Below are positions 7,486 to 31,666 of a stretch of 35,370 bases of DNA, piece after piece. A program made the position numbers and the translations under genes. The number at the start of each line of letters is the position of its first letter. Within the stretch, counting starts at the first letter, position 1. The DNA comes from Candidatus Poseidoniales archaeon (lineage in GTDB: Archaea > Thermoplasmatota > Poseidoniia > Poseidoniales > Thalassarchaeaceae). The notes below the pieces were generated by a model that saw nothing but the letters and a program-made list of their open reading frames with translations, made no database searches and had not been told where the DNA came from. The stretch is taken from contig QQRX01000015.1 of the NCBI GenBank assembly GCA_003602595.1, positions 1 to 35,370 on the forward strand. The letters run 5' to 3'.

Positions 7486-8283
7486 ATGCCCGAAGGCCTC
7501 GAGAGTCGTCTTGATAGGATTTTACCCGGTGGAAAGGGCGTTTGGGTGCCTCTAGATCATGGAATTTCACAGTATCCAGAAGAAGGTCTAGAGAATATGG
7601 ATAAAATAATTGAGCAACTAATTAATTCTCAGGTAGATGCCATTGTAATCCATAAAGGTGTTTTGAGTCATCAGATGAAAATTAGGCCTTGGAATAACTT
7701 TGTGTGTCATGTTTCTGCATCAACTGTGCATGGAGGAAATAGATCGGGAGAAAAAGTAAGTATTGCCACTGCAGAAGAGTGTTTGGATAGAGGAGCAATT
7801 GGAGTTTCTGGACAAATAAACATGGGAGAAGAAAATGAAGCAGAAATGATAATCGAAATGGGCGATCTTACAACAGATGCTTGGGCATTAGAGATTCCGG
7901 TGCTTGGGATGATATATCCTCGAGGAGAAAATCTAGTTATCTCAGATGATGATGAAACTAATGGTGTAGCACATGCAGCTAGATTGGCATGGGAAATAGG
8001 ATGTGATGTAGTTAAAGTTCCTTGGACAGGGTCAATTGAAAGTTTTCGAAAGGTTACTAGATCTGTACCAATCCCAGTACTTATTGCTGGAGGTGCAAAG
8101 AATATTTCTTTCAATGAACTGTTAGTAATTGTTGAGCAATCAATTCAAGCAGGAGGAAGTGGAGTATGTATTGGAAGACAAGTTTTTGGCTGTGAAAATC
8201 CAAGTTTGAATGTTAAAGCTCTCCGTGCAGTTGTGCACGAAGGAGTGAGTGCAATAGAGGCAATGAAAATAATAGAGGACTAG
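7486..8283 (+). CDS. aroA': 2-amino-3,7-dideoxy-D-threo-hept-6-ulosonate synthase (archaeal AroA')
   Basis: The 265-aa class I aldolase of the FbaB/DeoC-like family makes the seven-carbon precursor used by archaea that lack DAHP synthase (as MJ0400 does). Key residues are visible: D24 in VPLDHGIS, Y144 in LGMIYPRG and the Schiff-base K177 in DVVKVPW. The Asp-Tyr spacing of 120 matches MJ0400. The phosphate-binding VLIAGGAKN and GVCIGRQVF segments are present. The very similar fructose-bisphosphate aldolase is the main alternative, but the next gene, dehydroquinate synthase II, uses this enzyme's product and settles the role. No Shine-Dalgarno lies just before the ATG, so the message may be leaderless. 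It begins a four-gene aromatic amino acid cluster after a 65-bp gap (7421-7485), the likely promoter region. Confidence 0.93.
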   Translation: MPEGLESRLDRILPGGKGVWVPLDHGISQYPEEGLENMDKIIEQLINSQVDAIVIHKGVLSHQMKIRPWNNFVCHVSASTVHGGNRSGEKVSIATAEECLDRGAIGVSGQINMGEENEAEMIIEMGDLTTDAWALEIPVLGMIYPRGENLVISDDDETNGVAHAARLAWEIGCDVVKVPWTGSIESFRKVTRSVPIPVLIAGGAKNISFNELLVIVEQSIQAGGSGVCIGRQVFGCENPSLNVKALRAVVHEGVSAIEAMKIIED

Positions 8284-8285
8284 AA

Positions 8286-9230
8286 ATGGAACTTTGGTTA
8301 GATTGTTCTAATGAATATTCTGAAAAAAATTCTATTTATGCCGATAGGATTTGGGAAGGTGATTTACCTGATGTTGCAGAAATTTACCTGGAAGACGATA
8401 AGAGTCAAAATGAAGCTTACTCGATGATTGGGTTATCTCCTTGGATATTGGTTAGATGTAAAAATTGGAAAATGATACCACTGGAAAATCTAATATCAAG
8501 GTCTTTGGGGACTGGTACGAAAATAGCAGTTTCGATAGATGAAAAGATAGAGATTGAAGGTGCTGCATACGCACTTGAGCATGGAGTAGACGCATTACTG
8601 TTGCCTAACGATGATGAAATTTGGATTAAGGCAGTAAAAATAAGAGAGAATAAAACAACTGATGAACAAAAAAAGGAAAATGATGTAAGTAGGCTAAATG
8701 TGGCTAAAGTGACTTCGATTGAATCTGGAGGTTTTGGAGAAAGAGTTTGTATAGACCTAATTGAGAGATTGAAAGAAGGAGAGGGAATAATGGTTGGCTC
8801 GACCTCGAATGCATTGTGCCTTGTTCATGGAGAGACTTTAGAATCTGAATTTGTGCCTTCTAGGCCCTTTAGAGTGAATGTAGGCGCAATACACTCTTAC
8901 ATACTAGTGAAGGATGATGGGACAAAATACCTTAGTGAATTAGTCTCCGGTGAAAAAGTAAAAATCATCAATTGTGATGGAAATGAGAGGTATGCTTCAA
9001 TAGGCAGAATAAAAATTGAAAGACGTCCTTTTTTGAAAATTTCCTACAGTAATGAACAAATAAAAGGTCAAATAATTCTCCAACAAGCGGAAACTGTAAG
9101 ATTAATAGATAATTTAGGCAGAGCGGTGTCAGTAATTAATATCAAAATAGGAGATGAAATTTTAGTTATGCAGGACTCAAGAATGCGACATATCGGCAAT
9201 GCTATTGAAGGGGAGATGAGTGAGATATGA
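8286..9230 (+). CDS. aroB': 3-dehydroquinate synthase II (archaeal AroB')
   Basis: The 314-aa enzyme performs the NAD-dependent oxidative deamination and cyclisation of the AroA' product to 3-dehydroquinate, replacing classical AroB. The conserved C-terminal two thirds are clear: SGGFGERVCIDL, EGEGIMVGSTSNALCLVHGE, SRPFRVNVGAIHSYI, YLSELVSGEKV and GRIKIERRPFLKI match the MJ1249 family. The N-terminal third is more divergent and has a hydrophilic Glu/Lys-rich stretch near residues 118-132. It starts 2 nt after the aroA' stop, and its own stop overlaps the next start as ATGA, so translation of the cluster is probably coupled. Confidence 0.95.
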   Translation: MELWLDCSNEYSEKNSIYADRIWEGDLPDVAEIYLEDDKSQNEAYSMIGLSPWILVRCKNWKMIPLENLISRSLGTGTKIAVSIDEKIEIEGAAYALEHGVDALLLPNDDEIWIKAVKIRENKTTDEQKKENDVSRLNVAKVTSIESGGFGERVCIDLIERLKEGEGIMVGSTSNALCLVHGETLESEFVPSRPFRVNVGAIHSYILVKDDGTKYLSELVSGEKVKIINCDGNERYASIGRIKIERRPFLKISYSNEQIKGQIILQQAETVRLIDNLGRAVSVINIKIGDEILVMQDSRMRHIGNAIEGEMSEI

Positions 9231-10075
9231 AGACCTTAGGTGAAGGAGAGGCTAGAGGCGGAGTTTCTATATTACATGCACTCGGAACAGGAAAGGGGTG
9301 CTCAGTTGGAGTAAATTTACTTACAAGAGTAAAATTAGTTGATAAAAAATCTAAAAATTTGCAAGACGAACATAAGCTTCTTGATTCCGTGATAAAATGC
9401 TGGAAAGCTGAAGGATTTCCTCTTCCTAAAGAATATGGATGGGACATCTTCAGCGAAGTACCTATAGGACAGGGTCTAAAATCAAGTTCAGCTTTAGCAT
9501 GTGCTGCAATTAAATCTCTTAACTCTGCATCTTGGACGAATTTAAATGACTTTGAAATTATTGATTTAGCAGTTAAGGCTCAAAAACAAGCAGGCTGCAC
9601 AATTACTGGTAGTATTGATGATACATGGGGTGCAATTGCAGAAGGTTGGAAATTAATTGATTCAACTAAGAACGCTTCAGAATCAGTAATAATAGAAGGA
9701 GACATAGAACATTCTTTGTGCGTTCTAATTGCAATTAGAGGAAATAGGAAAAGAGACATAAAAGTAAATTCTTTTAAGGAATATAATACTCTTTTTGATA
9801 AAGCATTGGAATCCATAGAAAGAAGAGAGATTTTTGAAGCATTGACTACCAATGGAATGGGCGTTGCTGCTGCAAATGATGACGATGAAGCCATAAAAAT
9901 ATGCAATCTTTCCATTATTAATGGTGCAATAGCTGCAGGAATAACTGGCTCAGGGCCAGCGATCTGTATAATCTGTTATGAAAAGGAAGTTGAGAAATTA
10001 TCTGGTATAATTAAAAGATATGATATGGATTTGATAAAAACTACATTTTACAGTTTCTCGGAGGAGGAAATATAA
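9227..10075 (+). CDS. aroK: Shikimate kinase, archaeal GHMP-kinase type
   Basis: The 282-aa kinase phosphorylates shikimate at the 3-OH with ATP. It belongs to the GHMP superfamily, not the P-loop AroK/AroL of bacteria. Evidence: N-terminal GEGEARGGVSILHALGTGKG, GHMP ATP-binding motif PIGQGLKSSSALACAAIKSL (79-98), DDTWGAIAEGW in the middle, and C-terminal glycine motif GITGSGPAICII. The start overlaps the aroB' stop (ATGA) and the stop overlaps the aroC start by one base (TAATG). Context in an aromatic operon separates it from other GHMP kinases such as homoserine or mevalonate kinase. Confidence 0.95.
   Translation: MKTLGEGEARGGVSILHALGTGKGCSVGVNLLTRVKLVDKKSKNLQDEHKLLDSVIKCWKAEGFPLPKEYGWDIFSEVPIGQGLKSSSALACAAIKSLNSASWTNLNDFEIIDLAVKAQKQAGCTITGSIDDTWGAIAEGWKLIDSTKNASESVIIEGDIEHSLCVLIAIRGNRKRDIKVNSFKEYNTLFDKALESIERREIFEALTTNGMGVAAANDDDEAIKICNLSIINGAIAAGITGSGPAICIICYEKEVEKLSGIIKRYDMDLIKTTFYSFSEEEI
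10060..10067 (+). promoter_or_regulatory. Strong ribosome-binding site of aroC
   Basis: GGAGGAGG lies inside the end of aroK, 7 nt before ATG 10075. It favours this start over an in-frame ATG at 10081 and suggests coupled but reinforced aroC translation. Confidence 0.7.
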
Positions 10076-11178
10076 TGGGAATGGGACTGGGAGATAAATT
10101 GCGTATTACTTTATTTGGAGAAAGTCATGGAAAATGTGTAGGCGTACTAATAGAAGGTATGCCACCAGGGACTGAAATTGATAATGAGAAATTAGCAAAT
10201 GATATCAAAAATCGAAGACCAGGAAGAAAGGGATTGTCAACCAGAAAGGAATTGGATGAATGTGAAATATTATCAGGAGTTCATGAAGGTGTAGCAACTG
10301 GATGGCCCATATTACTAATTACAAAAAATTCAGATGTGAAGTCCTCTGATTATTCATTTTTACCAGATCAGCCTAGGCCAGGACACGCAGATATGGTTGA
10401 ATACATACGCTCAGGAGGCGTTAATGATCCTAGAGGAGGTGGTTCTCAATCTGCACGTCTGACATTCGGTATTGTCGCTGCGGGAAGCCAAGTAAGAAAT
10501 ATGTTAGAAAATGTAGGATGGAAATGTGAAGCACATTTACTAAGAGTCGGAAAAATTTCTGCAAAACAGCTACTCGAATTGAACAAGGAAAGTTCTCCAG
10601 AACGAAGTGTCAATATGGAAAAATTGAATTGTAAAGATAAAGAAGCAGCAGAAAAAATGTCAGATTATTTAGAAGAAATAAGGATGAGTAAAGATACTAT
10701 TGGTTCCGTGGTTGAATTATTAATTGAAGGTTTGCCGATTGGATTAGGAGAACCCTGGTTTGATGGTTTAGAACCATCATTGGCACGTGGATTGATGGCT
10801 ATTCCCGGTGCTAGAGCAGTTGAATTCTCACACGGAGTAAATTCTTCCTTAATGCGTGGATCAGAGCATAATGATGAATGGATAAATGGTGAAGAAAAAC
10901 CTACTCTAAAAAATTCAGGAAAGAAACTAGTAGATGGTGCTTTAGGAGGGCGTTCAACAGGATCGCCTATGAGTATTAAAATTCACTTTAAGCCACCGAG
11001 TAGCATTCCAAGAGAACAATTTACTTTACATCTTCCAAGTAATGAAATTAGATCTTTGAAAGTTGGCGGAAGGCATGACCCAGTTTTAGGCCCAAGAGCA
11101 GTCCCAGTAGTAGAAGCAGTTGCCATGTTGATAATAGCTGATTTAGGAATTATTGGAGAATATATTAAACATAATTAG
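10075..11178 (+). CDS. aroC: Chorismate synthase
   Basis: The 367-aa enzyme converts 5-enolpyruvylshikimate 3-phosphate to chorismate using reduced FMN. Family signatures in order: FGESHGKCVGVLIEGMPPG, RRPGRKGLSTRKELDECEIL, RPGHADMVEYIRSGGVNDPR then GGGSQSAR, EFSHGVN, GALGGRSTGSPMSIKI, and GRHDPVLGPRAVPVVEA. The length is normal. It is the last gene of the cluster. Its TAG overlaps the stop of the convergent membrane protein gene by 4 nt, and a seven-T run follows just after. It depends on FMN, which the ribB-ribL genes at the right end of the window help supply. Confidence 0.97.
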   Translation: MGMGLGDKLRITLFGESHGKCVGVLIEGMPPGTEIDNEKLANDIKNRRPGRKGLSTRKELDECEILSGVHEGVATGWPILLITKNSDVKSSDYSFLPDQPRPGHADMVEYIRSGGVNDPRGGGSQSARLTFGIVAAGSQVRNMLENVGWKCEAHLLRVGKISAKQLLELNKESSPERSVNMEKLNCKDKEAAEKMSDYLEEIRMSKDTIGSVVELLIEGLPIGLGEPWFDGLEPSLARGLMAIPGARAVEFSHGVNSSLMRGSEHNDEWINGEEKPTLKNSGKKLVDGALGGRSTGSPMSIKIHFKPPSSIPREQFTLHLPSNEIRSLKVGGRHDPVLGPRAVPVVEAVAMLIIADLGIIGEYIKHN

Positions 11179-17340: not shown

Positions 17341-18321
17341 TTATATCTCCAATAGACCCTTGCTTGCACGTCTAGATAAAACTTTGACCATTTTTCTCCT
17401 GTAAGAGGGTTGAAACCAAGTATTCAAAACTGGTTTTACAGATTTTCTAATTGATTCAGCTAACTCTTCTACACTATCACTTCCAGACCATGATTCTATT
17501 ATTTTCTGAGTTTCTTCAGAATGGAAGCGTGGTATGGATTCTATCCCCGTAGTCGCAACACGAAGGTCGGAAGGGCCTTTATCTCCTTTCTTCCACAAAA
17601 CTGCAACTCCTGCCTCTGGAAAATCCCATGAGTCTCGTTGTGTAAGTTTTTGGTAATCCCCTTCCCATTCAAAAACATCATCAGGGAAAGTAATATGTGT
17701 TACTAATTCATCCTCCAATAGAATATTTTTTGTAATACCGTCTAATTTAAAAAAATCTTTGATTAAAACAGATCGAGTACCTTTAGGCGATGCTAAATAA
17801 ATAGTTGCACCCAAGCCCATCAATACAGGAGCCATATCAGCTTGGTAGGTTGCTACACAGAGAGTATTTTGATTTGGAATAACTCTACAATCGGCACCTG
17901 TACCACAATCACATTTATGGCAATAATCAATAGATTCTCTCCATTCTTCAGATTGATTAAACCAAAAACAACGTGTATCTAAACATATATTACCTCCTAA
18001 AGTAGCTGAACGTCTAATCATAACGCTAGCAACTAGACTTGCAGATTTTGCAATTAAAGGATGAATCTCGGGTGATCGTGATATATCATAAAGCCGAGCC
18101 ATTGCACCAATATGGTTTTTAGAAATCTTATGTAAATCTTCTATTTTAGATAATGAAATAACATCAGATTTAGTATTAATATGCCATTTATAGTTGGGTA
18201 TTAAATCTGTCCCTCCTGCAATCCAATCGTAGTCTAAGTTCTGTCTCCTAAGTTCTTTCACAATCTCGAATGCTTCATCTAATGTTGATGGTGTGTGCAA
18301 TTTAAATGGAGGCATTTTCAT
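17341..18321 (-). CDS. Molybdenum hydroxylase FAD-binding subunit with a probable extra [4Fe-4S] loop (HcrB/CoxM family)
   Basis: The 326-aa protein carries FAD between the iron-sulfur subunit and the electron acceptor. FAD motifs: WIAGGTDLIP (33-42) and the TLGGNIC region (107-113). Between these and the C-terminal domain lies a Cys-rich segment with C118, C134, C137, C139, C145 and C155. In 4-hydroxybenzoyl-CoA reductase beta subunit (HcrB) a similar insertion binds an additional [4Fe-4S] cluster. The C118-C134 spacing of 16 equals the first spacing there, and LDTRCFWFNQS also looks HcrB-like. Ordinary CoxM and XDH FAD subunits lack this insertion. It starts 2 nt after the large subunit stop. 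The family assignment is firm; the cluster is inferred from Cys spacing, and the physiological substrate is unproven. Confidence 0.9.
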   Translation of the reverse strand: MKMPPFKLHTPSTLDEAFEIVKELRRQNLDYDWIAGGTDLIPNYKWHINTKSDVISLSKIEDLHKISKNHIGAMARLYDISRSPEIHPLIAKSASLVASVMIRRSATLGGNICLDTRCFWFNQSEEWRESIDYCHKCDCGTGADCRVIPNQNTLCVATYQADMAPVLMGLGATIYLASPKGTRSVLIKDFFKLDGITKNILLEDELVTHITFPDDVFEWEGDYQKLTQRDSWDFPEAGVAVLWKKGDKGPSDLRVATTGIESIPRFHSEETQKIIESWSGSDSVEELAESIRKSVKPVLNTWFQPSYRRKMVKVLSRRASKGLLEI

Positions 18322-18323
18322 AA

Positions 18324-21095
18324 TTAATCATTCCTCTTTCTTCTTTCTACATGCCTCCAGGCACTTCCTGCTAATCTAGGATTAGAGAGATATTGATCAT
18401 CAGGAATGACACGTATTTCCCATCTAGAATCTTGTTCGTCTCCTGGTACTTCTGGGTTCATACCGAATAATGCACCATTGTGATATGGTGTTTTTTCTTC
18501 CGATAAAATTCTTTCTAAATCTCTTTCAGAGTGTTTAGAAGCCCTACTTTCTAATACTGTTTGTAAGTCAGAATGAATTAAAGAAGGATTAGGTAAATTA
18601 AGAGGGTTAGATATTTTCAGAATTTTACATTTCTTCTCTATCTCTTTATATAATCTATCACCTGTTATAGGTAATTCATTTACTCTTATTCCAGATGCGT
18701 CATAAACCGCATTACAAACTGCAGGAAGTATGGGCAACAATGGACCTTCTCCTGCCTCTTTGGCACCGAACGGGCCCTCCAAATCATTGGATTCGACTAT
18801 AATTGGATTTACCTTTGGCATTTCATGGATACTTGGAATTTTATAATCCAATAAATCTGGATTTAGTAAGTCTCCACCACGGCTATACTTCATTTCTTCA
18901 CTAAGTACTTGACCAAGTCCCATGTGACAAGAGCCAATTATCTGTCCCTTAACAGAGAGAGGATTTAGGGCTTTTCCACAATCATGCGCTGCCCATACTT
19001 CAAGAACTTTAGTTTGTCCGGTTTCCATATCTACCTTTACTTCAGCGACATAAGCAGAAAAAGAGTAAGCTGGCGCTAATCCTGCAGCAGCTCCTTTGTG
19101 TGCCCTCCCCATGGGAGGAGTACGATATGAGCCTGAAGATGTAAGTGCCCCTCTATCTTCTTGGGCTTTATGTAAAGCTTCAAGATATGAAACTCCTATT
19201 GCAGGATCTTGTTTATCAAAAATTCTCCTATCTCCAATGACAAGTTTCTCTATTTCAGTTTCTGTTATGATGGAGGCCGCTTTGAGAAGGTCTTTCCTTA
19301 TTTCCATAGCTGCAGAAATTGCTGCATTAGCATTCATGAATGTGACTCTTGAAGAATAGGATCCTAAATCTACAGGAGATGTATCGGTTTCTCTACTTCT
19401 TACACGTATCATGTCCAAAGGTAGCCCAAGAACTTCGGCAACTGATTGGGCAACAACTGTGTCGGACCCTTGTCCTATATCTGCAGCACCTGTATGGATT
19501 GTAACTCCTCCATCCATATCTATTTTCAAATGAACAGTTGCATGTGGAAATTTATTGGGATCCCAATGAATTGGTAGGCCACTGCCAGATATGAAAAATC
19601 CACAACCTATGCCAATACCGTGTCCTAATGGTAATTGGCGAAATTTTTTATCCCAATTCGATGCTTTTTTGACTTTTTCCAGACATTCTCTCATGCCAAT
19701 ACTAGTTATCCTAAAACCAGTAATTGTTGCAGAAAAAGGAGGTAATAGATTGGCTAAACGAAGTGTAATTGGATCTACAGATAATTGTTCAGCAATATCA
19801 TCTAGTCCGACTTCAACCGCACATCTAGAATTGACAGCCCCATGACCTCGCATTGCACCACTTGCAGGTTTATTTGTCCAAACTCTAGCACCAGTATAAT
19901 GAAATGCCCCTAATTCATATGGTGCAGTATGTAAGACTCCATTGTAATATGTAGTTACATGACCAAAGGATGCAAAGGCGCCTCCATCGATCAAGGCATC
20001 GGTTTGAACACCACATAGTCGGCCATCAGAATCTGCATGTATGTCCATTTCTATTCTAGAAGGATGTCTCCCTCTGTTTACCCAAAATACTTCTTCTCTG
20101 TCAAAAGTAATTCTTACTGGCCTACCTGATTTTCTAGCCAATATAGCAGCACACATTTCATGAGGAAATGGATCGGATTTACCTCCGAAACCACCACCTA
20201 CGAAAGTTCGATAAACATTAATTTGATGCATTGGAATTTCCAAGACATCTGCTAATGCACGATGGACGTAATGGGGTACTTGTTGAGGAGTATATAATGT
20301 CAATCTGCCAGATGGATCCCAATCAGCGACAACTGCATGTGGTTCTGTGAAACCATGATTAACACCAGCAAATAACCAATTCGATTTATGATTTGCCACT
20401 GAATTAGGAATCATTTCGCCAATATTGCCAAATTCTTGAAAAACCCTTTTTTGTACATTTGATTCTCCGATATGATATTGTCCCCTGTCATGTATTGGAT
20501 ATTCAGAATCATCCAGTCCTTTTCGCATATCGTGAATACTATCTAAAACCTCATATTCAACTTCAATTAATCTGACTGCTTCTAAGGCTGTAATTTCATC
20601 AATCGCTGCAACACAAGCTACCAAATCTCCTTTATGACGAGTTTTTTCAATTGCCATTGCGTGTTCGTCTTTGGTCACTGGTAAAACTCCAAAGGAATTT
20701 TGTGCATCTGCACCAGTTGCTATAGCTATGACACCTTCTAACTCTACGGCTTTACTAATATCGATCGAAAGTACACGCGCATAATGATGTGGAGAACGTA
20801 CGATTTTTCCAATTAATTCATTACTTAACCTTATATCATCTCCATAATTAGCCTTTCCCGTAACTTTCCATTTACTATCTACGAGTGCAGTGGACTTACC
20901 TATGGATGTTCCACTAATTAGCGGATCGTGCCTATGGTCGCCCTTAGGCTGGTGTTTTTTACCACCTTGGCTTTCGGGTATTAATTGGATATCACGTAAT
21001 TCACTGAATTGGTTTTTACCACCAGAGCCAGGCCTTGAGAAAGGTAACTTACCCGGTTGTTGTCTGTAGCCAACCATTTCATCATCATTAGACAT
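18324..21095 (-). CDS. Molybdenum hydroxylase large subunit, molybdopterin-binding (xanthine dehydrogenase / HcrA / CoxL family)
   Basis: The 923-aa catalytic subunit has the Ald_Xan_dh_C a/b-hammerhead beginning near SKWKVTGKANYGDDI, then Mo-cofactor motifs FVGGGFGGKSDPFPHEM (near 299), GAMRGHGAVNSRCAVE (near 413) and GAADIGQGSDTVVAQS. The catalytic Glu lies in FGAKEAGEGPLLP (near 780). It lacks the AYxCSFR loop of CO dehydrogenase, and GAKEAGEGP resembles 4-hydroxybenzoyl-CoA reductase and related hydroxylases. It has about 60 extra N-terminal residues (Gly, Lys and His rich) and about 90 extra C-terminal residues after the Mo domain. Start: a GTG at 21134 lies in the previous gene; ATG 21095 has GGTG upstream and follows that gene by 10 nt. 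Substrate unknown: an aromatic acyl-CoA, purine or aldehyde are all possible. Confidence 0.94.
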   Translation of the reverse strand: MSNDDEMVGYRQQPGKLPFSRPGSGGKNQFSELRDIQLIPESQGGKKHQPKGDHRHDPLISGTSIGKSTALVDSKWKVTGKANYGDDIRLSNELIGKIVRSPHHYARVLSIDISKAVELEGVIAIATGADAQNSFGVLPVTKDEHAMAIEKTRHKGDLVACVAAIDEITALEAVRLIEVEYEVLDSIHDMRKGLDDSEYPIHDRGQYHIGESNVQKRVFQEFGNIGEMIPNSVANHKSNWLFAGVNHGFTEPHAVVADWDPSGRLTLYTPQQVPHYVHRALADVLEIPMHQINVYRTFVGGGFGGKSDPFPHEMCAAILARKSGRPVRITFDREEVFWVNRGRHPSRIEMDIHADSDGRLCGVQTDALIDGGAFASFGHVTTYYNGVLHTAPYELGAFHYTGARVWTNKPASGAMRGHGAVNSRCAVEVGLDDIAEQLSVDPITLRLANLLPPFSATITGFRITSIGMRECLEKVKKASNWDKKFRQLPLGHGIGIGCGFFISGSGLPIHWDPNKFPHATVHLKIDMDGGVTIHTGAADIGQGSDTVVAQSVAEVLGLPLDMIRVRSRETDTSPVDLGSYSSRVTFMNANAAISAAMEIRKDLLKAASIITETEIEKLVIGDRRIFDKQDPAIGVSYLEALHKAQEDRGALTSSGSYRTPPMGRAHKGAAAGLAPAYSFSAYVAEVKVDMETGQTKVLEVWAAHDCGKALNPLSVKGQIIGSCHMGLGQVLSEEMKYSRGGDLLNPDLLDYKIPSIHEMPKVNPIIVESNDLEGPFGAKEAGEGPLLPILPAVCNAVYDASGIRVNELPITGDRLYKEIEKKCKILKISNPLNLPNPSLIHSDLQTVLESRASKHSERDLERILSEEKTPYHNGALFGMNPEVPGDEQDSRWEIRVIPDDQYLSNPRLAGSAWRHVERRKRND

Positions 21096-21105
21096 AAAAA
21101 CACCT

Positions 21106-21672
21106 TTAATTATTGAATCCGGGATGAGGGTCACTTTTTGGAGAAGTTGAGTCTTCGATTTTTACATTATTTAGCATTATTTCTGAAGCGGCTTTTACAG
21201 AATCAATAATTTGTTGATATCCGGTACACCTACACAGATTTCCTTCTATAGCAGTTTTTATTTCATGATCGTTTGGATTGGGATTTTCATCTAATAATGC
21301 TGAAATTACTACTAGAAATCCTGGTGTACAAAAACCGCACTGGCTTCCTCCGTACTCTGCAAAAGTTTCCTGAATTGGGTGAAGATGGTGTCCCAAAGAT
21401 AGACCCTCTACTGTAGTTATTTTAGAACCTTCAACTTCCTTGGCCATAGTTAAACATGATAATTTTGGTATACCGTCAACTAAAACTGTACAGCAGCCAC
21501 ATGTTCCTAAATCGCATCCTCTCTTAGTACCAAGACTTCCTCCTTTATTTCTCAAAACATCTAATAAAATAGAATTACTTGCTATAGTAGTGGAAAAATC
21601 AACATTATTTATCTTTGATGTCCAAGATACTTCATCCGAGGCAGGAATCATAGGAAGTCTGAACCGTGACAT
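21106..21672 (-). CDS. Molybdenum hydroxylase small subunit, two [2Fe-2S] clusters (CoxS/HcrC family)
   Basis: The 188-aa electron-transfer subunit has a plant-ferredoxin-like N-terminal cluster (C53, C58, C61 and C73 in RGCDLGTCGCCTV and LSC). The C-terminal four-helix domain holds the second cluster (C112, C115, C147, C149 in QCGFCTPGF and NLCRCTGYQQI). All eight ligands are present. It has about 20 extra residues at each end compared with typical 160-aa members. Gene order is small-large-FAD, unlike coxMSL. It follows the HTH regulator stop by 5 nt, so regulator and enzyme share a transcript. Confidence 0.97.
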   Translation of the reverse strand: MSRFRLPMIPASDEVSWTSKINNVDFSTTIASNSILLDVLRNKGGSLGTKRGCDLGTCGCCTVLVDGIPKLSCLTMAKEVEGSKITTVEGLSLGHHLHPIQETFAEYGGSQCGFCTPGFLVVISALLDENPNPNDHEIKTAIEGNLCRCTGYQQIIDSVKAASEIMLNNVKIEDSTSPKSDPHPGFNN

Positions 21673-21677
21673 GTATG

Positions 21678-22379
21678 TTAATTCCCATCCATCATAGTTC
21701 TTTGAGTATTTGGATTTAAATTATCATTTTGTGTCTTTAGATCTTCAATGGCTTTACATAAGATCATTGATTCTGCTCTTTGGATATGTTCTCCAAGAGT
21801 ACTCCTAGCCATACCAAGTTCGTCGGCCAAATCTTTTAGAGTAGTTTTAGATTCTTTGGCATAATATCCTCTATAAGCAGCATAAGATATTATTTCTTTT
21901 TGCCTACTTGTTAAATCATCCGTCCAGCCATTTCCGATATCTCCTTTTATAGATTGGACACTGATTTTATCAGGAGGCATTAATTCTCTAACTACAGAAA
22001 CAAACTTCCTTACTGAATCAGAAATTCCAGATATTCGCAATTCCATTCCCGTTTCTGAGCATAATTTATACGGAGTTTGTAAATGAATATTTGCCATTTC
22101 TATTCCCATAATTGCTAATGGATGTGTGCATAGTAAACTAACTAAAATACCGTCTTCATCTTCTTCATATTTGTCAATAACTTCAAAATATTTTAGTTTT
22201 GAAATATCTTTAAGAGAGGTGTTTTCACGTAATTTTATCTCGGATAATTGAGTTATTCCTTTATTTGTAACTGAAAGATGGCCAAGAATTTCAATACTGT
22301 GAACAAGGCTAAGAATTTGAGAAATTTCATCTGAATCACGAAGTGAATTAATGTTCCACCTTATGAAGACCTTACGCAT
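21678..22379 (-). CDS. HTH_10 (Bat-type) transcriptional regulator
   Basis: The 233-aa protein ends in a bacterioopsin-activator-type HTH (about 152-203): LTSRQKEIISYAAYRGYYA, then TTLKDLADELGMARSTLGEH and IQRAE. The N-terminal domain (about 1-150) resembles the sensing half of this archaeal family but has no recognisable cofactor motif. The frame can be opened at TTG 22430 inside the preceding protease gene, but ATG 22379 starts MRKVFIRW, as family members usually do. Neither start has a strong ribosome-binding site. It lies directly ahead of the Mo-hydroxylase subunits, so it probably controls this operon, perhaps in response to the enzyme's substrate. That role is inference. Confidence 0.85.
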   Translation of the reverse strand: MRKVFIRWNINSLRDSDEISQILSLVHSIEILGHLSVTNKGITQLSEIKLRENTSLKDISKLKYFEVIDKYEEDEDGILVSLLCTHPLAIMGIEMANIHLQTPYKLCSETGMELRISGISDSVRKFVSVVRELMPPDKISVQSIKGDIGNGWTDDLTSRQKEIISYAAYRGYYAKESKTTLKDLADELGMARSTLGEHIQRAESMILCKAIEDLKTQNDNLNPNTQRTMMDGN

Positions 22380-22420
22380 ATTCAATGCAAAGGGGGAATA
22401 TGTATTGAATCCTGCGGAGA

Positions 22421-23641
22421 CTATGACCAATAAGACTCACGGATAGCCTGATTAGTTTCCATACATAGAACTACATCAGATGGTCGATTAGGAATTTCAG
22501 CGGTCCCATTGAGATGTTCGATGATTGGTAAAACATTGCTCTCATTTACGACGCCCCAACCAACTTGAGTACAGGGAGCAACGGGAGAGATAGGAGTTGT
22601 GCCTGAGAGAGGATCCCATGATGAAAATGAAGGATACCACGCTGAAAGATTAAGAGCATCTCTTAAATCATCATTTGAAAATTTTATTTCAGAACCATTG
22701 ATCAGGTTTTTATTCCTTTTTTCCGGATTTGCACCAGATGAAAAATCACCAAATTCATCCCTTAAACTAGTGATTATTTTTGAAAGTAATCCTGCAGTTC
22801 TCGGAGTTGCAAATGAAGTTCCAGAAGTTTCATGATAACCATCCACATCATCATGATTCGGTAGTATTTGTGTCCAATCAGCTGCTACATCAGGATATGA
22901 ACCGCTCATAGTTTCTTTCTGATCGTCTCCTTCTTCAGCATAACCAGAAATACCGATACTCCAAGGAGGTCCGGCTGTCGAATCTTGTACTGCAGGAGAG
23001 GGAGAATTATCTGCAGCTCCTGTGTGTATTTTTCCTTTTTCTACAACTGCGACTTTTGTCGCATCTTCGATTCCTGGAACTGGAATTGAGCCTATTGGGC
23101 CAAAACTAGTAGTTATTATATCAACAAGTGGTTGATTTGCTGCTGCCAAAACAGCAGCGTCACTAAAGCCTTCTACAAAGAATATTACAGCATTGGGGTT
23201 TGCATTCAATACTGCTCCTGTAACTGCAGTACCATGACCATCTTGAGGGTCATCTAGAATTGGGATATCCGTATTATCATCGGGAGTGGTTCCAATTATC
23301 CTTGTACCTTTGAACCAAACAATATCTGTAGAAACGATTGTATCCCAACACGATTCTTTATCTGAAGAATATCTTTCTTCCCAGGATCCATTTTTAGTTA
23401 TGTCACATACTTTAGTCACTCCCAATCCGTTCAATAGCCATTGAGGATAGTCTTCTTCCATAACAAAATGATCATGATAGACATTTATTCCGGTATCTAT
23501 AGGAGCAACTACACTAAAAGCCCCAAAATCATTTGATGTAGAATTATCTTGAATACCAGATATTTTTGCATTGCCGTAACAACCGCTAAAGGAAGAAAGT
23601 AAAAGTATCAACATAGTTGAAAAAACGAAAGATTTTGACAT
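22421..23641 (-). CDS. Subtilisin-like serine protease (S8), predicted lipoprotein
   Basis: The 406-aa protein has a signal peptide ending in a lipobox (LSSFSGC, C21), so it is probably lipid-anchored outside the membrane. The catalytic triad is complete: D49 in APIDTGINV, H136 in DGHGTAVTG and S276 in ETSGTSFATPRTAG, with oxyanion N212 in GAADNSPSP. The protease domain starts almost directly after the lipobox, so there is no long propeptide. GGAG lies 8 nt before the ATG. It follows xdhC by 14 nt and precedes the regulator, an unexpected place for a protease within a molybdoenzyme operon. It differs strongly from the S8 gene at the left edge. The substrate is unknown. Confidence 0.93.
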   Translation of the reverse strand: MSKSFVFSTMLILLLSSFSGCYGNAKISGIQDNSTSNDFGAFSVVAPIDTGINVYHDHFVMEEDYPQWLLNGLGVTKVCDITKNGSWEERYSSDKESCWDTIVSTDIVWFKGTRIIGTTPDDNTDIPILDDPQDGHGTAVTGAVLNANPNAVIFFVEGFSDAAVLAAANQPLVDIITTSFGPIGSIPVPGIEDATKVAVVEKGKIHTGAADNSPSPAVQDSTAGPPWSIGISGYAEEGDDQKETMSGSYPDVAADWTQILPNHDDVDGYHETSGTSFATPRTAGLLSKIITSLRDEFGDFSSGANPEKRNKNLINGSEIKFSNDDLRDALNLSAWYPSFSSWDPLSGTTPISPVAPCTQVGWGVVNESNVLPIIEHLNGTAEIPNRPSDVVLCMETNQAIRESYWS

Positions 23642-23655
23642 TTTTATTTCTCCAT

Positions 23656-24504
23656 TTATTTATTCTCCAAAGATTGTTTTGCATCTAAAGAAATTATCTC
23701 AGCGCAAATAGCGATTGCTATTTCTTCTGGGGTGTGTGCACCTATAGGTAAACCAATAGGGCATCTAGTCGAATCAATAGTAGCAATTGGAATATTCGCA
23801 TCTAATGCGGCTTTCCTAAATGCCGACCATTTAGTCTTAGAGCCTATGCAACCGACCCTTGGCCTTTGATTAAGATCGATTTTGGATAAAATACCAATTA
23901 AAATTTCCTGGTCTAGACTCCAATCGTGACCTAGTATGAAAATATCTGAGAATCTAGATAGAGATTTTTGATCTTCTGAGTCCAGAAAATCGGAAATAGA
24001 AGAAGTGTATATTTCTTCGGCATTCGGAAATCTTTCTTTGTTAGAGAAATCCTCTCGAACATCGAAAATACTGTAAGTCCAGCCTATAGAATCACAAACG
24101 AATGCCAATGATTTTCCAACATGCCCTCCTCCAATAATTAAAACATTAGGAGAAGTATTTATCACTTCCAAAGACACTGTTAGTTGACCTCCACAAAGAC
24201 TGTCCAAAGCAGTTACTTCTTTGCCTTTTCCATCCTTGTATAATAAAAAATTCTCTATTCTTCCTCCCTGTAAAGACATCCTATATGGGCTTTTAATTAA
24301 TTCATAAAGCATTTTCTCGATTTTTAGTTCTAATCCCGCTCCTCCGATTGTACCGAATTTTTCACCGTTTTTTATCATAGCCAATTTAGCACCCGGTTTG
24401 CCTGGTATGCTTCCTTTTGAATCAATTACAGTAGCCAAGGCTACATCGTAACCTTCTGCTAACTTTTCTAAAATCCAAGAATGGACTCTTCGAGTCATAC
24501 ACAT
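23656..24504 (-). CDS. xdhC: XdhC/CoxI-family molybdenum cofactor maturation protein
   Basis: The 282-aa protein binds and helps sulfurate the Mo cofactor before insertion into hydroxylases. The N-terminal XdhC domain has ATVIDSKGSIPGKPGAKLAM and GTIGGAGLELKIEKML, with CGGQLTV in the middle (C104 region). The C-terminal NAD(P)-like Rossmann domain has VLIIGGGHVGKSLA, then ILGHDWSLDQEIL, GCIGSKTKW and PIGLPIGAHTPEEIAIAI. In-frame ATGs stand at 24504 and 24498; neither has a clear ribosome-binding site. It is the first gene of the operon, with the enzyme subunits downstream. The family is certain, and the genetic context fits. Confidence 0.94.
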   Translation of the reverse strand: MCMTRRVHSWILEKLAEGYDVALATVIDSKGSIPGKPGAKLAMIKNGEKFGTIGGAGLELKIEKMLYELIKSPYRMSLQGGRIENFLLYKDGKGKEVTALDSLCGGQLTVSLEVINTSPNVLIIGGGHVGKSLAFVCDSIGWTYSIFDVREDFSNKERFPNAEEIYTSSISDFLDSEDQKSLSRFSDIFILGHDWSLDQEILIGILSKIDLNQRPRVGCIGSKTKWSAFRKAALDANIPIATIDSTRCPIGLPIGAHTPEEIAIAICAEIISLDAKQSLENK

Positions 24505-24725: not shown

Positions 24726-25934
24726 ATGGTTAGTTTTAATGAAATTATTGAAATAATTGTTATCAGCATGCGTGACGCTTTTCTTGCAGTCACTGTTTTT
24801 GTTGCTGCAATGGTTTTGTTGTTCAGTTGGTTACAATATATCACAGCAGGAAGATTTGTCGATGTAATTCGATCAAATACTAGATGGCAACCAATAATTG
24901 GCGCACTCATGGGCATAACACCAGGATGTGGTGGAGCTATTGTAATGATGCCTATGTATGCGCGTGGTTATGTTACTTATGGCACTGTAATAGCAACACT
25001 GATTGCAACATTAGGAGATGCAGCATTTGTATTAATTGGTACAGCAGTTACTGATTCATCATTTATACTTCCTGTTATTGCTGTACATCTAATTTCATTG
25101 TTTGTTGGAATTTTTTGGGGATATCTTGTTGATATCCTAAAAATTACTCCTCGTAATCCTTTAGGGAAATTTAGTTTGAATTTTCAAGATAATTTGGCAA
25201 TAGAGGTCCTTGTTGATCGGAAAAAACAAGACTCGAGAGAGGTATTCGAAGACCTAGGAAGAGAAGAAGAAAATGGTTGGGGCTACATTCTTCTTCACCA
25301 AGGATATACTATTTGGTGGGTCATAACTGCTCTAGGACTAATATTCGCAATTATGTTGTTGTTTTGGAGTGCCCAAGATGCAAATTTCGCTCTAGAAATA
25401 GATTATAATCCATTTACTTTACACGGTTTTATTACTTGGATAGGTTTGATTGGAACTTCTTTATCCATTATTCTGTATATTTCACAGAGAAATTGGATTA
25501 GTGACGATACAGAAGCATCTATTGGCGATAAATTATATTCAATGCGTGAAACATTGATTCATTCTGCGAGTGAAACTGCATTCGTTACATTTTGGGTGAT
25601 GTCTGCATATCTAATTTTTGAATTTGCCATGTTATTTTCAAATATGGACCAGAATGACCTAACATCATATGGAGATGGTTTGATTGCAGTAATTATTGCA
25701 TCATTAATTGGATTAATACCCGGATGTGGCCCCCAAATAATTGCTGTAACAGCATATACAAAGGACGTCATCTCGTTTCCGGCACTAGTAGCAAATGCCA
25801 TCAGTCAAGATGGAGATGCGCTTTTCCCATTACTAGCAAGACATCGGGTAGCGAGTTTATGGGCAACTATTCACACCACTATCCCTGCCTTAATTGTCGG
25901 CGTTGGGTTGATGTTGTTTGATATTACATTCTAA
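24726..25934 (+). CDS. Putative 10-TM heavy-metal/manganese exporter (ArsP_2 family)
   Basis: The 402-aa membrane protein has an internal two-fold repeat. The first half has GITPGCGGAIVMMPMYARGY and ATLIATLGDAAFVLI (about 63-104). The second has GLIPGCGPQIIAVTAYTKDV and ISQDGDALFPLLA (about 326-370). These PGCG and GDA motifs mark the PF11449 (ArsP_2) putative manganese/heavy-metal exporter family. The two bundles are joined by a charged loop of about 45 residues (about 150-195). GGAG stands 8 nt upstream of the ATG. It stands alone on the + strand, divergent from xdhC, and its last 45 nt overlap the convergent nucleotidyltransferase gene. The family match is good; the metal is not determined. 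Confidence 0.85.
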   Translation: MVSFNEIIEIIVISMRDAFLAVTVFVAAMVLLFSWLQYITAGRFVDVIRSNTRWQPIIGALMGITPGCGGAIVMMPMYARGYVTYGTVIATLIATLGDAAFVLIGTAVTDSSFILPVIAVHLISLFVGIFWGYLVDILKITPRNPLGKFSLNFQDNLAIEVLVDRKKQDSREVFEDLGREEENGWGYILLHQGYTIWWVITALGLIFAIMLLFWSAQDANFALEIDYNPFTLHGFITWIGLIGTSLSIILYISQRNWISDDTEASIGDKLYSMRETLIHSASETAFVTFWVMSAYLIFEFAMLFSNMDQNDLTSYGDGLIAVIIASLIGLIPGCGPQIIAVTAYTKDVISFPALVANAISQDGDALFPLLARHRVASLWATIHTTIPALIVGVGLMLFDITF

Positions 25935-26534
25935 ATTGTCCTCATTTTGTAAAGAAGAAATGAATTGGAAAAGGTTTGGAATATCTTTTTCTGTATCTAT
26001 ATTAAGATGTAAATAGTCATCCATTACTTCAAATTTTTTTGGCTTTATTATATCTCGTAGAGGCGTTGCAGGATTTTGATTTAGGATTTTTTTAACATCT
26101 AATTTTGATAGTAGTAGAGGATGTCCTCCTTTGCCATCTTTTTCAGGACAAGCGGTGTAATCCAAAGATATTAATTTTGATAATGTTGAAGAGGAAAATC
26201 CTGGTCTGTCAACTGGAACAACTAGGGCTTTGAAATCCTTCGAATAATTTTCAATAATGAAGTTTAGGCCGACTTGAAGTGAACCCGTCCTGCCGGATTC
26301 AGGATTGTTGTTAGAAATTATTTCTACCTCTTCTGTGAGGTTTTTTATTTCGGAAATTAATTCTTCCCGAGTTACAATTATTGTCGTGATATTATGATTT
26401 TTAAGTCTTTTAACTAAAAAATTAATTAAAATATCATTATTTATTTTTAATAATGATTTTGGCTTACCCAATCTCTGACTTTTACCAGCTGCCAATATGA
26501 CTGAAAAAATTGTTTCGTCCTTTGATGGTATCAT
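25890..26534 (-). CDS. MobA-like molybdenum cofactor nucleotidyltransferase (MocA type)
   Basis: The 214-aa NTP-transferase-3 protein probably adds CMP (or GMP) to molybdopterin. Motifs: FSVILAAGKSQRLGKPKSLL (10-29, nucleotide binding), ESGRTGSLQVGL, VVPVDRPGF (metal-binding Asp), KGGHPLLLSK and LNIDTEKDIPNL. These fit the MocA/CoxI-associated branch, whose CMP form is used by the xanthine dehydrogenase family such as the one nearby. The C-terminal ~15 residues are read antisense to the exporter end, so they may be a recent extension. It starts 21 nt after the antiporter stop. General sugar-nucleotide transferase is a less likely alternative. Confidence 0.88.
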   Translation of the reverse strand: MIPSKDETIFSVILAAGKSQRLGKPKSLLKINNDILINFLVKRLKNHNITTIIVTREELISEIKNLTEEVEIISNNNPESGRTGSLQVGLNFIIENYSKDFKALVVPVDRPGFSSSTLSKLISLDYTACPEKDGKGGHPLLLSKLDVKKILNQNPATPLRDIIKPKKFEVMDDYLHLNIDTEKDIPNLFQFISSLQNEDNLECNIKQHQPNADN

Positions 26535-30391: not shown

Positions 30392-30421
30392 ATTCCCTCG
30401 GAAAGGGTATTCATACAACAA

Positions 30422-30547: not shown

Positions 30548-31666
30548 TTAATACTTCCTAACAGATGAATCTACAGTATCTGACCAATTTAAAATTCCGC
30601 CCTTTAGATTTAAGATTCTATTAGCATGTCCCGCTTCGATAAGAAATCTCTGTACTGCTGCAGATCTAACTCCTGATCTACAGTATATTACAATATCTCT
30701 GTCTGATGGTATTTCTTGAATTCTATTTGGTATTTCAGTATGGACAATTGTTAAATTAGTACCTTCTATTTTTGAAATTATTTCTTCATCAGGTCGCCTG
30801 ACATCAAGCAGAAATGGTTTCCAATTATCTGTATTTATTTTATCCATATACTCGAGAGGAGTTATGTCACCAAAAGAAGAATTACTCATACAATATTCTG
30901 ATTCCAAAGAGAGCTCAGATATTAACCCCCTAGACGTATTCGCTTCAAATTTCAATATTCTGGAAGACATTGAGAGCGCATTAAAAAGGAGTAATTTGCC
31001 GGAGAGGATATTGCCCATTCCAAGTATTATTTTTATTGCTTCAGCGGCCTGTATGGAACCTATTATCCCTGGTAGAATTCCTAAAACCCCTGCTTCTGCA
31101 CAATTTGGTGCAAATTCTAAAGGAGGAGGTTTTGGGAATATATCTCTATAATTTAATCCATGGGAAGAATTGAATGTGGAAACTTGGCCTTCAAATTGAT
31201 GAATACTAGCAAAAATCCAAACTTTATTTAAAATTTCACATGCATCATTTATCAAGTATCTAGTTTGAAAATTGTCTGTTCCATCAACAATTATATCGAA
31301 TTGTTTTATTAAATCTAATGCATTTTCAATATTCAATCGTGAATTAAAAGTTCTCACGGTTATCTCAGGATTTAGATCCAATAATCTCCTCTTTGCCGAA
31401 TCGACTTTGAATTCACCTAAATTTGCATTACTATGAATTACTTGTCTTTGAAGGTTTGAAACATCTACCTTATCGTCATCAATTATGCCAATATTACCTA
31501 ATCCTGCAGCTGCTAAGTATAGTAGACAAGGAGAGCCAAGTCCTCCCGCGCCAACTACTAAAACTGAAGAGTTTTTGAGTTTTATTTGACCTTTCATACC
31601 TACTTGTGGTAATGAAAGATGTCGTGCATATCGTTCTAATTCAGAATTAGATAATTCTTCATGCAT
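30548..31666 (-). CDS. moeB: MoeB/ThiF-type adenylyltransferase fused to rhodanese (MOCS3/MoeZ-like)
   Basis: The 372-aa enzyme activates the C-terminus of a ubiquitin-like sulfur carrier (MoaD, ThiS or SAMP) and passes sulfur to it. The E1-like domain has VLVVGAGGLGSPCLLYLAAAG (36-55), NLQRQVIH, DGTDNFQTRYLIND and APNCAEAGVLGILPG (C189). The C-terminal rhodanese domain (about 265-365) has active-site loop IVIYCRSGVRSAAV with C329. The paired CxxC zinc motifs of E. coli MoeB are not visible, as in some MoeZ-like proteins. GGAG lies 4 nt before the ATG. It could serve Mo cofactor synthesis for the hydroxylase downstream, tRNA thiolation, or both. No sulfur carrier is in the window. Confidence 0.92.
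   Translation of the reverse strand: MHEELSNSELERYARHLSLPQVGMKGQIKLKNSSVLVVGAGGLGSPCLLYLAAAGLGNIGIIDDDKVDVSNLQRQVIHSNANLGEFKVDSAKRRLLDLNPEITVRTFNSRLNIENALDLIKQFDIIVDGTDNFQTRYLINDACEILNKVWIFASIHQFEGQVSTFNSSHGLNYRDIFPKPPPLEFAPNCAEAGVLGILPGIIGSIQAAEAIKIILGMGNILSGKLLLFNALSMSSRILKFEANTSRGLISELSLESEYCMSNSSFGDITPLEYMDKINTDNWKPFLLDVRRPDEEIISKIEGTNLTIVHTEIPNRIQEIPSDRDIVIYCRSGVRSAAVQRFLIEAGHANRILNLKGGILNWSDTVDSSVRKY

Follow-up and report, generated by a model that had tools for sequence, protein, structure and literature searches.

A 4-hydroxybenzoyl-CoA reductase-like molybdenum enzyme with a four-cysteine cluster site, conserved across Poseidoniales

A three-subunit molybdenum hydroxylase whose FAD subunit carries a cysteine-rich insertion is encoded in the genome of a Candidatus Poseidoniales archaeon, and the locus raises the question of which enzyme this is and what it would act on in such a host. 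Marine Group II (MGII) organisms are among the most abundant archaea of the surface ocean, and they are uncultured. The window, meaning the whole stretch of DNA that was analysed, is 35,370 nucleotides long (contig QQRX01000015.1), and the relatives found for it (Marine Group II MED-G34, Ca. Thalassarchaeum betae and Poseidonia sp.) bear out the pelagic archaeal host supposed in the initial annotation, which had been made from the sequence alone. Its neighbours by whole-genome comparison belong to the same genus, family and order. The MGII xdhC and yagS genes have been called xanthine dehydrogenase and assigned to xanthine catabolism (PMC9723583). Complete Moco synthesis has been reported as core in MGII, with no HCR-like enzyme named in the portion of that report available (PMC6461757). 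No mention of 4-hydroxybenzoyl-CoA reductase (HCR, 4-HBCR) together with Marine Group II was found in the literature searched, a weak negative with many subscription papers outside the search. The enzyme is probably misannotated at present. HCR is known for taking a hydroxyl group off aromatic compounds in an oxygen-independent reaction. The sequence evidence points to an HCR-type aromatic (de)hydroxylase and not to a xanthine dehydrogenase, found in essentially every genome with a fixed gene order, and suggests that Poseidoniales process aromatic molecules in a manner not yet recognised.

The FAD-binding medium (beta) subunit, with an HCR-type [4Fe-4S] site, is encoded at 17341..18321 on the minus strand (326 aa; 1rm6_B, TIGR03195, PF00941). 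Thauera HcrB (1rm6_B) was the best solved structure for it and aligned from end to end (phmmer, E 1.9e-40), with C118, C134, C145 and C155 falling one-to-one on the four [4Fe-4S] cysteines of HcrB. Aligned to HcrB and relatives, the cluster insert (beta residues 118-155; 17857..17970, minus strand) reads C118-x15-C134-x10-C145-x9-C155, compared with x15-x7-x8 in HcrB. The identical first spacing and the position of the insertion agree with what had been claimed for it earlier. Against TIGR03195 the subunit scored 219 bits, below the cut-off of 404.55. The predicted structure of beta (AlphaFold) had a mean pLDDT of 86 and its best PDB match was again 1rm6_B (TM 0.85). The fold was right, and the Cys loop was of low confidence (pLDDT about 53-69), so the cluster geometry is not proven by the model.

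All four cluster cysteines were among the 22 invariant columns of a 34-sequence alignment of relatives. Columns 118 and 134 were each Cys in 86/86 relatives of beta, and column 145 was Cys in 85/86, the sole exception being Tyr in a PaoB-like protein. The four were also kept in Lutacidiplasmatales, KSB1, Gemmatimonadota and others, and the soil and sediment Thermoplasmatota and bacterial relatives have the Thauera spacing (x15-x7-x8) without the longer loop of Poseidoniales. The initial annotation had named conservation of six cysteines across Poseidoniales as a check, which held for these four and failed for the two between them, C137 and C139. Column 137 was Cys in just 55/86 relatives, with Ala in 25 and also Glu, Thr, Lys or Asp. 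C139 was Cys in nearly all Poseidoniales; one genus (G018, G028) has Ala or Glu instead, and the column does not exist in relatives outside the order. Because neither is conserved among relatives, C137 and C139 were ruled out as extra cluster ligands and are not essential ones. On the alignment evidence they are dispensable, having arrived with a small Poseidoniales-specific lengthening of the loop.

The reading frame of the molybdenum (alpha) subunit occupies 18324..21134 on the minus strand (1rm6_A, TIGR03194). It opens at a GTG at 21134; because this overlaps the gamma gene and an ATG lies 13 codons further in, the likely start is the ATG at 21095, giving 923 aa. The gamma subunit, with two [2Fe-2S] clusters, is encoded at 21106..21672 on the minus strand (188 aa; 1rm6_C, TIGR03193, PF01799, PF00111). 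The best solved structures were 1rm6_A for alpha (E 1.4e-187, runner-up 2.9e-73) and 1rm6_C for gamma (E 8.1e-43). Both scored below the corresponding cut-offs, alpha with 802 bits against 994.55 for TIGR03194 and gamma with 170 bits against 257.8 for TIGR03193. The HCR motifs are retained in alpha: GAMRGHG, a Tyr aligned with Thauera Y326 (TYYNG), GSYSSRVTF, and GAKEAGE, which holds the Glu aligned to Thauera E726, the general base of the family. We take Tyr326 and Glu726 to be the active-site residues of 4-HBCR described in the structural literature. A CO dehydrogenase was ruled out, as alpha has GAMRGHG where CoxL has the VAYACSFR Cys loop (VAYRCSFR-type), and the earlier observation that the large subunit is without this loop was correct. 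Extensions of about 65-75 aa at the N-terminus and about 100 aa at the C-terminus of alpha were found only in Poseidoniales and are conserved in the order; they were mostly of low confidence in the predicted model.

A tree of the large subunit, suggested in the initial annotation, placed alpha with Thauera HcrA and apart from CoxL, QorL, XdhA and PaoC, all of which fell outside the group formed by the HCR-like clade and Thauera HcrA. In this tree (47 rows) the Poseidoniales formed one clade (support 100/100) inside a 32-row clade (100/99), and Thauera HcrA joined next (99/91). The 32-row clade contained Lutacidiplasmatales, other Thermoplasmatota, KSB1, Wallbacteria, Gemmatimonadota, a Kuenenia-labelled MAG, and Deltaproteobacteria and Myxococcales MAGs. 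The beta tree agreed, joining the clade with Thauera Hcr and leaving PaoB on another branch; in both trees branches are long and Thauera is the single characterised HCR included. Judged from this placement, the enzyme is an HCR-like subfamily forming a separate clade rather than 4-HBCR proper, and it was not filed as 4-HBCR because all three subunits are under the NCBIfam equivalog cut-offs. The alpha subunit of one archaeal genome (G087) recurs unchanged in the sequence record JAJPHT010000050.1, which is titled Proteobacteria bacterium Centralia_MAG_189 and whose taxon label is probably wrong.

Among Poseidoniales genomes with a completeness of 90% or more, 24/24 contained the complex, as did 56-57 of the 59 genomes overall, and HCR-like alpha was found in 144/145 Poseidoniales of a 392-genome phylum sample. 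The sister family f3 had the complex in 1/9. In almost every Poseidoniales genome it was the sole XO-family match. A fragmented Poseidoniales MAG (G020; contigs C17, C24 and C303) has several additional XO-family genes of ~30% identity, possibly contamination. The HCR-like enzyme was ruled out as the sole Moco client, PF00384 proteins occurring in 57/59 genomes; the sulphite-oxidase type was nearly absent (2/59). Elsewhere in the genome that contains the window there are two other molybdopterin proteins, an FdhF/YdeP-type oxidoreductase (contig C85, 812-3133 of the extracted locus) and a 912-aa DMSO-reductase-family-like protein (contig C30, 1479-5650). Beside the latter is a protein of 473 aa whose N-terminus is rich in cysteine and ferredoxin-like and whose C-terminus is membrane-like.

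The gene order shared by ten genomes of both families was shikimate genes, MoxR/DUF58, beta-alpha-gamma, XdhC, MocA-like, E1 and MoeB. The genes of the window given with coordinates in the rest of this paragraph are on the minus strand. An XdhC-family Moco sulphuration/insertion chaperone is encoded at 23656..24504 (PF13478, E 6e-30; PF02625; syntenic in 10/10 genomes). The nucleotidyltransferase at 25890..26534 (TIGR03310; synteny 10/10) is a candidate MocA-like molybdenum cofactor cytidylyltransferase; with 79.9 bits for MocA (TIGR03310) versus 44.8 for MobA, both under the cut-off, it is nearer to MocA, as would be expected with an MCD cofactor. The MoeB/ThiF plus rhodanese protein (Moco sulphur transfer) at 30548..31666 is tied to the complex by synteny alone. 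Next to the gamma gene is an HTH_10 regulator of the bacterio-opsin activator type (21678..22430; PF04967, E 3e-12), syntenic in family f1. Among the HCR-like operons of other phyla, just the XdhC and MobA/MocA-like neighbours recur, and no aromatic pathway genes were noticed alongside.

Several other genes of the window lie around the enzyme. An archaeal-type shikimate block (7486-11178), with ADH synthase, 3-dehydroquinate synthase II, a GHMP-type kinase and chorismate synthase, lies in an order conserved in both families. A secreted subtilase-family protease (22421-23641) sits beside the molybdenum operon and is conserved in most relatives, and an ArsP_2-type heavy-metal/arsenic exporter (24726-25934, plus strand) is at this spot in some relatives and missing in others. 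At 27527-30421, a single protein of 964 aa unites what are the alpha and beta portions of E1 in a 2-oxoacid dehydrogenase complex, and it is in the same place in relatives.

Searches of the 59 genomes for aromatic pathways gave two contrasting outcomes. Benzoate-CoA ligase (TIGR02262) was above cut-off in 0/59, and the classical anaerobic benzoyl-CoA pathway was rejected, with BCR-type HGD-D proteins (PF06050) in just 2/59; with no ligase above cut-off and almost no such protein, the classical HCR pathway is missing. A single protein of about 380-400 aa matching PaaA_PaaC and, far better, BoxB was present in 58/59 genomes, including all near-complete ones, and in 132/145 Poseidoniales of the 392-genome sample. 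Its best PDB match was 3per, benzoyl-CoA oxygenase component B (E 2e-47), and in alignment to 3per it keeps all six aligned diiron-ligand positions (GDTE, EEQRH, DRDGKYQ, KEESFH), motifs that carry the diiron ligands of BoxB. It scored 211-213 bits against the TIGR03225 equivalog cut-off of 499.1, with 0/59 genomes above. The gene sits with enoyl-CoA hydratase and 3-hydroxyacyl-CoA dehydrogenase in 9/9 genomes examined, often also with an FAD oxidoreductase, an aldehyde dehydrogenase and a divergent MoaE gene; no BoxC-sized partner was found in the operon. The gene boxB was listed among highly expressed MG-II genes in a Red Sea plankton transcriptome (PMC5069720). In the genome of the window the operon is on contig C24 (2266-5886), in genome G019 on contig C8 (5655-13145 of locus L265), with equivalents in others, and it includes a protein of ~190 aa that matched neither Pfam nor NCBIfam.

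The BoxB-like and HCR-like genes are unlinked, lying at about 0.64 Mb and 1.80 Mb on one contig of genome G036. Strict co-occurrence of the two across the phylum was rejected, being imperfect with single-gene families. Outside Poseidoniales, family f13 has both genes strongly, f6 and f20 have the HCR-like gene and a distant diiron relative, f4, f19, f30 and f31 have the BoxB-like gene without a listed HCR-like match, and genome G061 has the HCR-like gene only. In four genomes of other Thermoplasmatota families (G059, G077, G103 and G111) the BoxB-like homologues are strong (53-60% identity) and no HCR-like match is listed, so that the tie between the BoxB-like operon and the HCR-like enzyme is not a strict one.

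The complex is most likely a (de)hydroxylase of HCR type, coupled to ferredoxin and acting on an aromatic acyl-CoA or a similar phenolic, with substrate and direction inferred. C118, C134, C145 and C155 of the FAD subunit would bind an extra [4Fe-4S] cluster. By analogy with 4-HBCR, electrons may pass from a putative low-potential ferredoxin partner to [4Fe-4S], FAD, the two [2Fe-2S] clusters and Mo, and the Mo site would be loaded with an MCD cofactor via MocA and XdhC. The substrate there could be an aromatic ring with a thioester or some other electron-withdrawing group in para position, possibly an aryl-CoA, from which a ring hydroxyl would be reductively removed, or the reverse. Because a core BoxB-like aryl-CoA epoxidase operon is in the genomes, an aromatic acyl-CoA is a plausible substrate for the HCR-like enzyme. 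The most likely role in Poseidoniales would be to ready a hydroxyaryl-CoA for the epoxidase and the beta-oxidation-like enzymes of the separate BoxB-like operon, and the dehydroxylated product would be the better substrate for the epoxidase. Taken as a whole, the combination of extra cluster, ferredoxin route and MCD Mo site acting on an activated ring and feeding the BoxB-like operon is the best explanation, and we lean towards it by a little. 4-HBCR is oxygen-sensitive and Poseidoniales are mostly archaea of oxic water, which counts against this explanation. So do the sub-cut-off scores of the HCR-like subunits and of the BoxB-like protein, the missing classical HCR pathway, the lack of a BoxC-sized partner, the distance between the two loci and their uneven co-occurrence outside Poseidoniales. 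A further proposal, held only tentatively, is that a hybrid route is core to Poseidoniales, in which HCR-type dehydroxylation via low-potential ferredoxin takes place in an oxygen-exposed cell and the BoxB-like epoxidase and beta-oxidation-like enzymes then open the ring. If true, archaea that are dominant in the sunlit ocean would combine an anaerobe-type step with an aryl-CoA pathway of the aerobic kind. The HCR-like enzyme and the core BoxB-like operon lead to the testable prediction that MGII transform aromatic dissolved organic matter.

The current MGII annotation as a xanthine (purine) dehydrogenase names an enzyme of the same family as the HCR-like complex, and the MGII xdhC/yagS genes, together with a xanthine/uracil permease, have been interpreted as xanthine use (PMC9723583). 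The active-site letters of alpha speak against it and ruled it out as an assignment: at the position of bovine XDH E802 alpha has Ser, and that of R880 lies within YYNG, where the residue is Asn or Tyr and never Arg (the bovine reference stretch was checked letter for letter against the PDB). In addition, XDH-type structures matched far below HCR, the NCBIfam XDH models were below the HCR models, and xanthine dehydrogenases are without the four-Cys insert, so that purine oxidation is very improbable. A more serious competitor, and the main one, would be an enzyme that hydroxylates aldehydes or N-heterocycles oxidatively and happens to have the HCR-type cluster, passing electrons out to ferredoxin, much as PaoABC has its own extra Fe-S site. 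PaoB, the FAD subunit of an aldehyde oxidoreductase, also has four inserted cysteines at this position, most XO-family enzymes are oxidative, oxic water is the main habitat of the hosts, and the searches showed no complete aromatic pathway. The Cys spacing of PaoB differs, PaoB is elsewhere in the beta tree, and alpha is HCR-type at each motif checked; on balance we regard an oxidative enzyme as unlikely.

The HCR-like clade might also have a new substrate class, a non-CoA phenolic as in the urolithin C dehydroxylase Ucdh, with a role in electron disposal or in detoxification of dissolved phenols. Ucdh, for which 4-HBCR is the closest relative among characterised enzymes, acts reductively on a free phenolic lactone (PMC12771579), and a non-CoA substrate is also favoured by the lack of a benzoate-type CoA ligase above cut-off and by the stand-alone operons of other phyla. 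Since these genomes also carry the core BoxB-like operon for aryl-CoAs, CoA-bound aromatics are likely in the cells, and we consider free phenolics rather improbable as the substrate. The initial annotation had stated that enzymes with this cluster act on aromatic acyl-CoAs at low potential, which is too narrow, as the PaoB insert belongs to an aldehyde oxidoreductase and the Ucdh substrate urolithin C is not a CoA ester (PMC12771579). That interpretation is partly supported: its general kind is right, and its details are drawn too narrowly.

The HCR-type reading may be set against four known systems. Ucdh of Enterocloster bolteae, before which reportedly a single XO-family enzyme had been shown to carry out reductive dehydroxylation and whose activity is improved by XdhC co-expression (PMC12771579), resembles the Poseidoniales complex as an XO-family member with HCR as its closest characterised relative, a likeness drawn from its published description; it differs in its gut anaerobe host and non-CoA substrate. 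E. coli PaoABC (YagTSR) is alike in that PaoB, whose annotation is that of an FAD-binding Fe-S subunit, has four cysteines inserted at this position, but it has the spacing x9-x8-x18, a different branch of the beta tree and other alpha motifs. With BoxB (3per) the Poseidoniales BoxB-like protein shares the diiron-ligand positions, whereas its length is about 380 aa versus 481 and its partner genes differ from boxAC. Thauera aromatica HcrABC (PDB 1rm6/1sb3) was the top match for all three subunits, and is alike in its three subunits, four cluster Cys, identical first spacing and the alpha motifs GAMRGHG, the Tyr326 position, GSYSSRVTF and KEA(S/G)E. The Poseidoniales enzyme departs from it in the second and third Cys spacings (10 and 9 versus 7 and 8), in an alpha subunit extended at both termini, in its separate clade and sub-cut-off scores for all subunits, and in a genomic context other than that of classical 4-HB-CoA ligase or benzoyl-CoA reductase.
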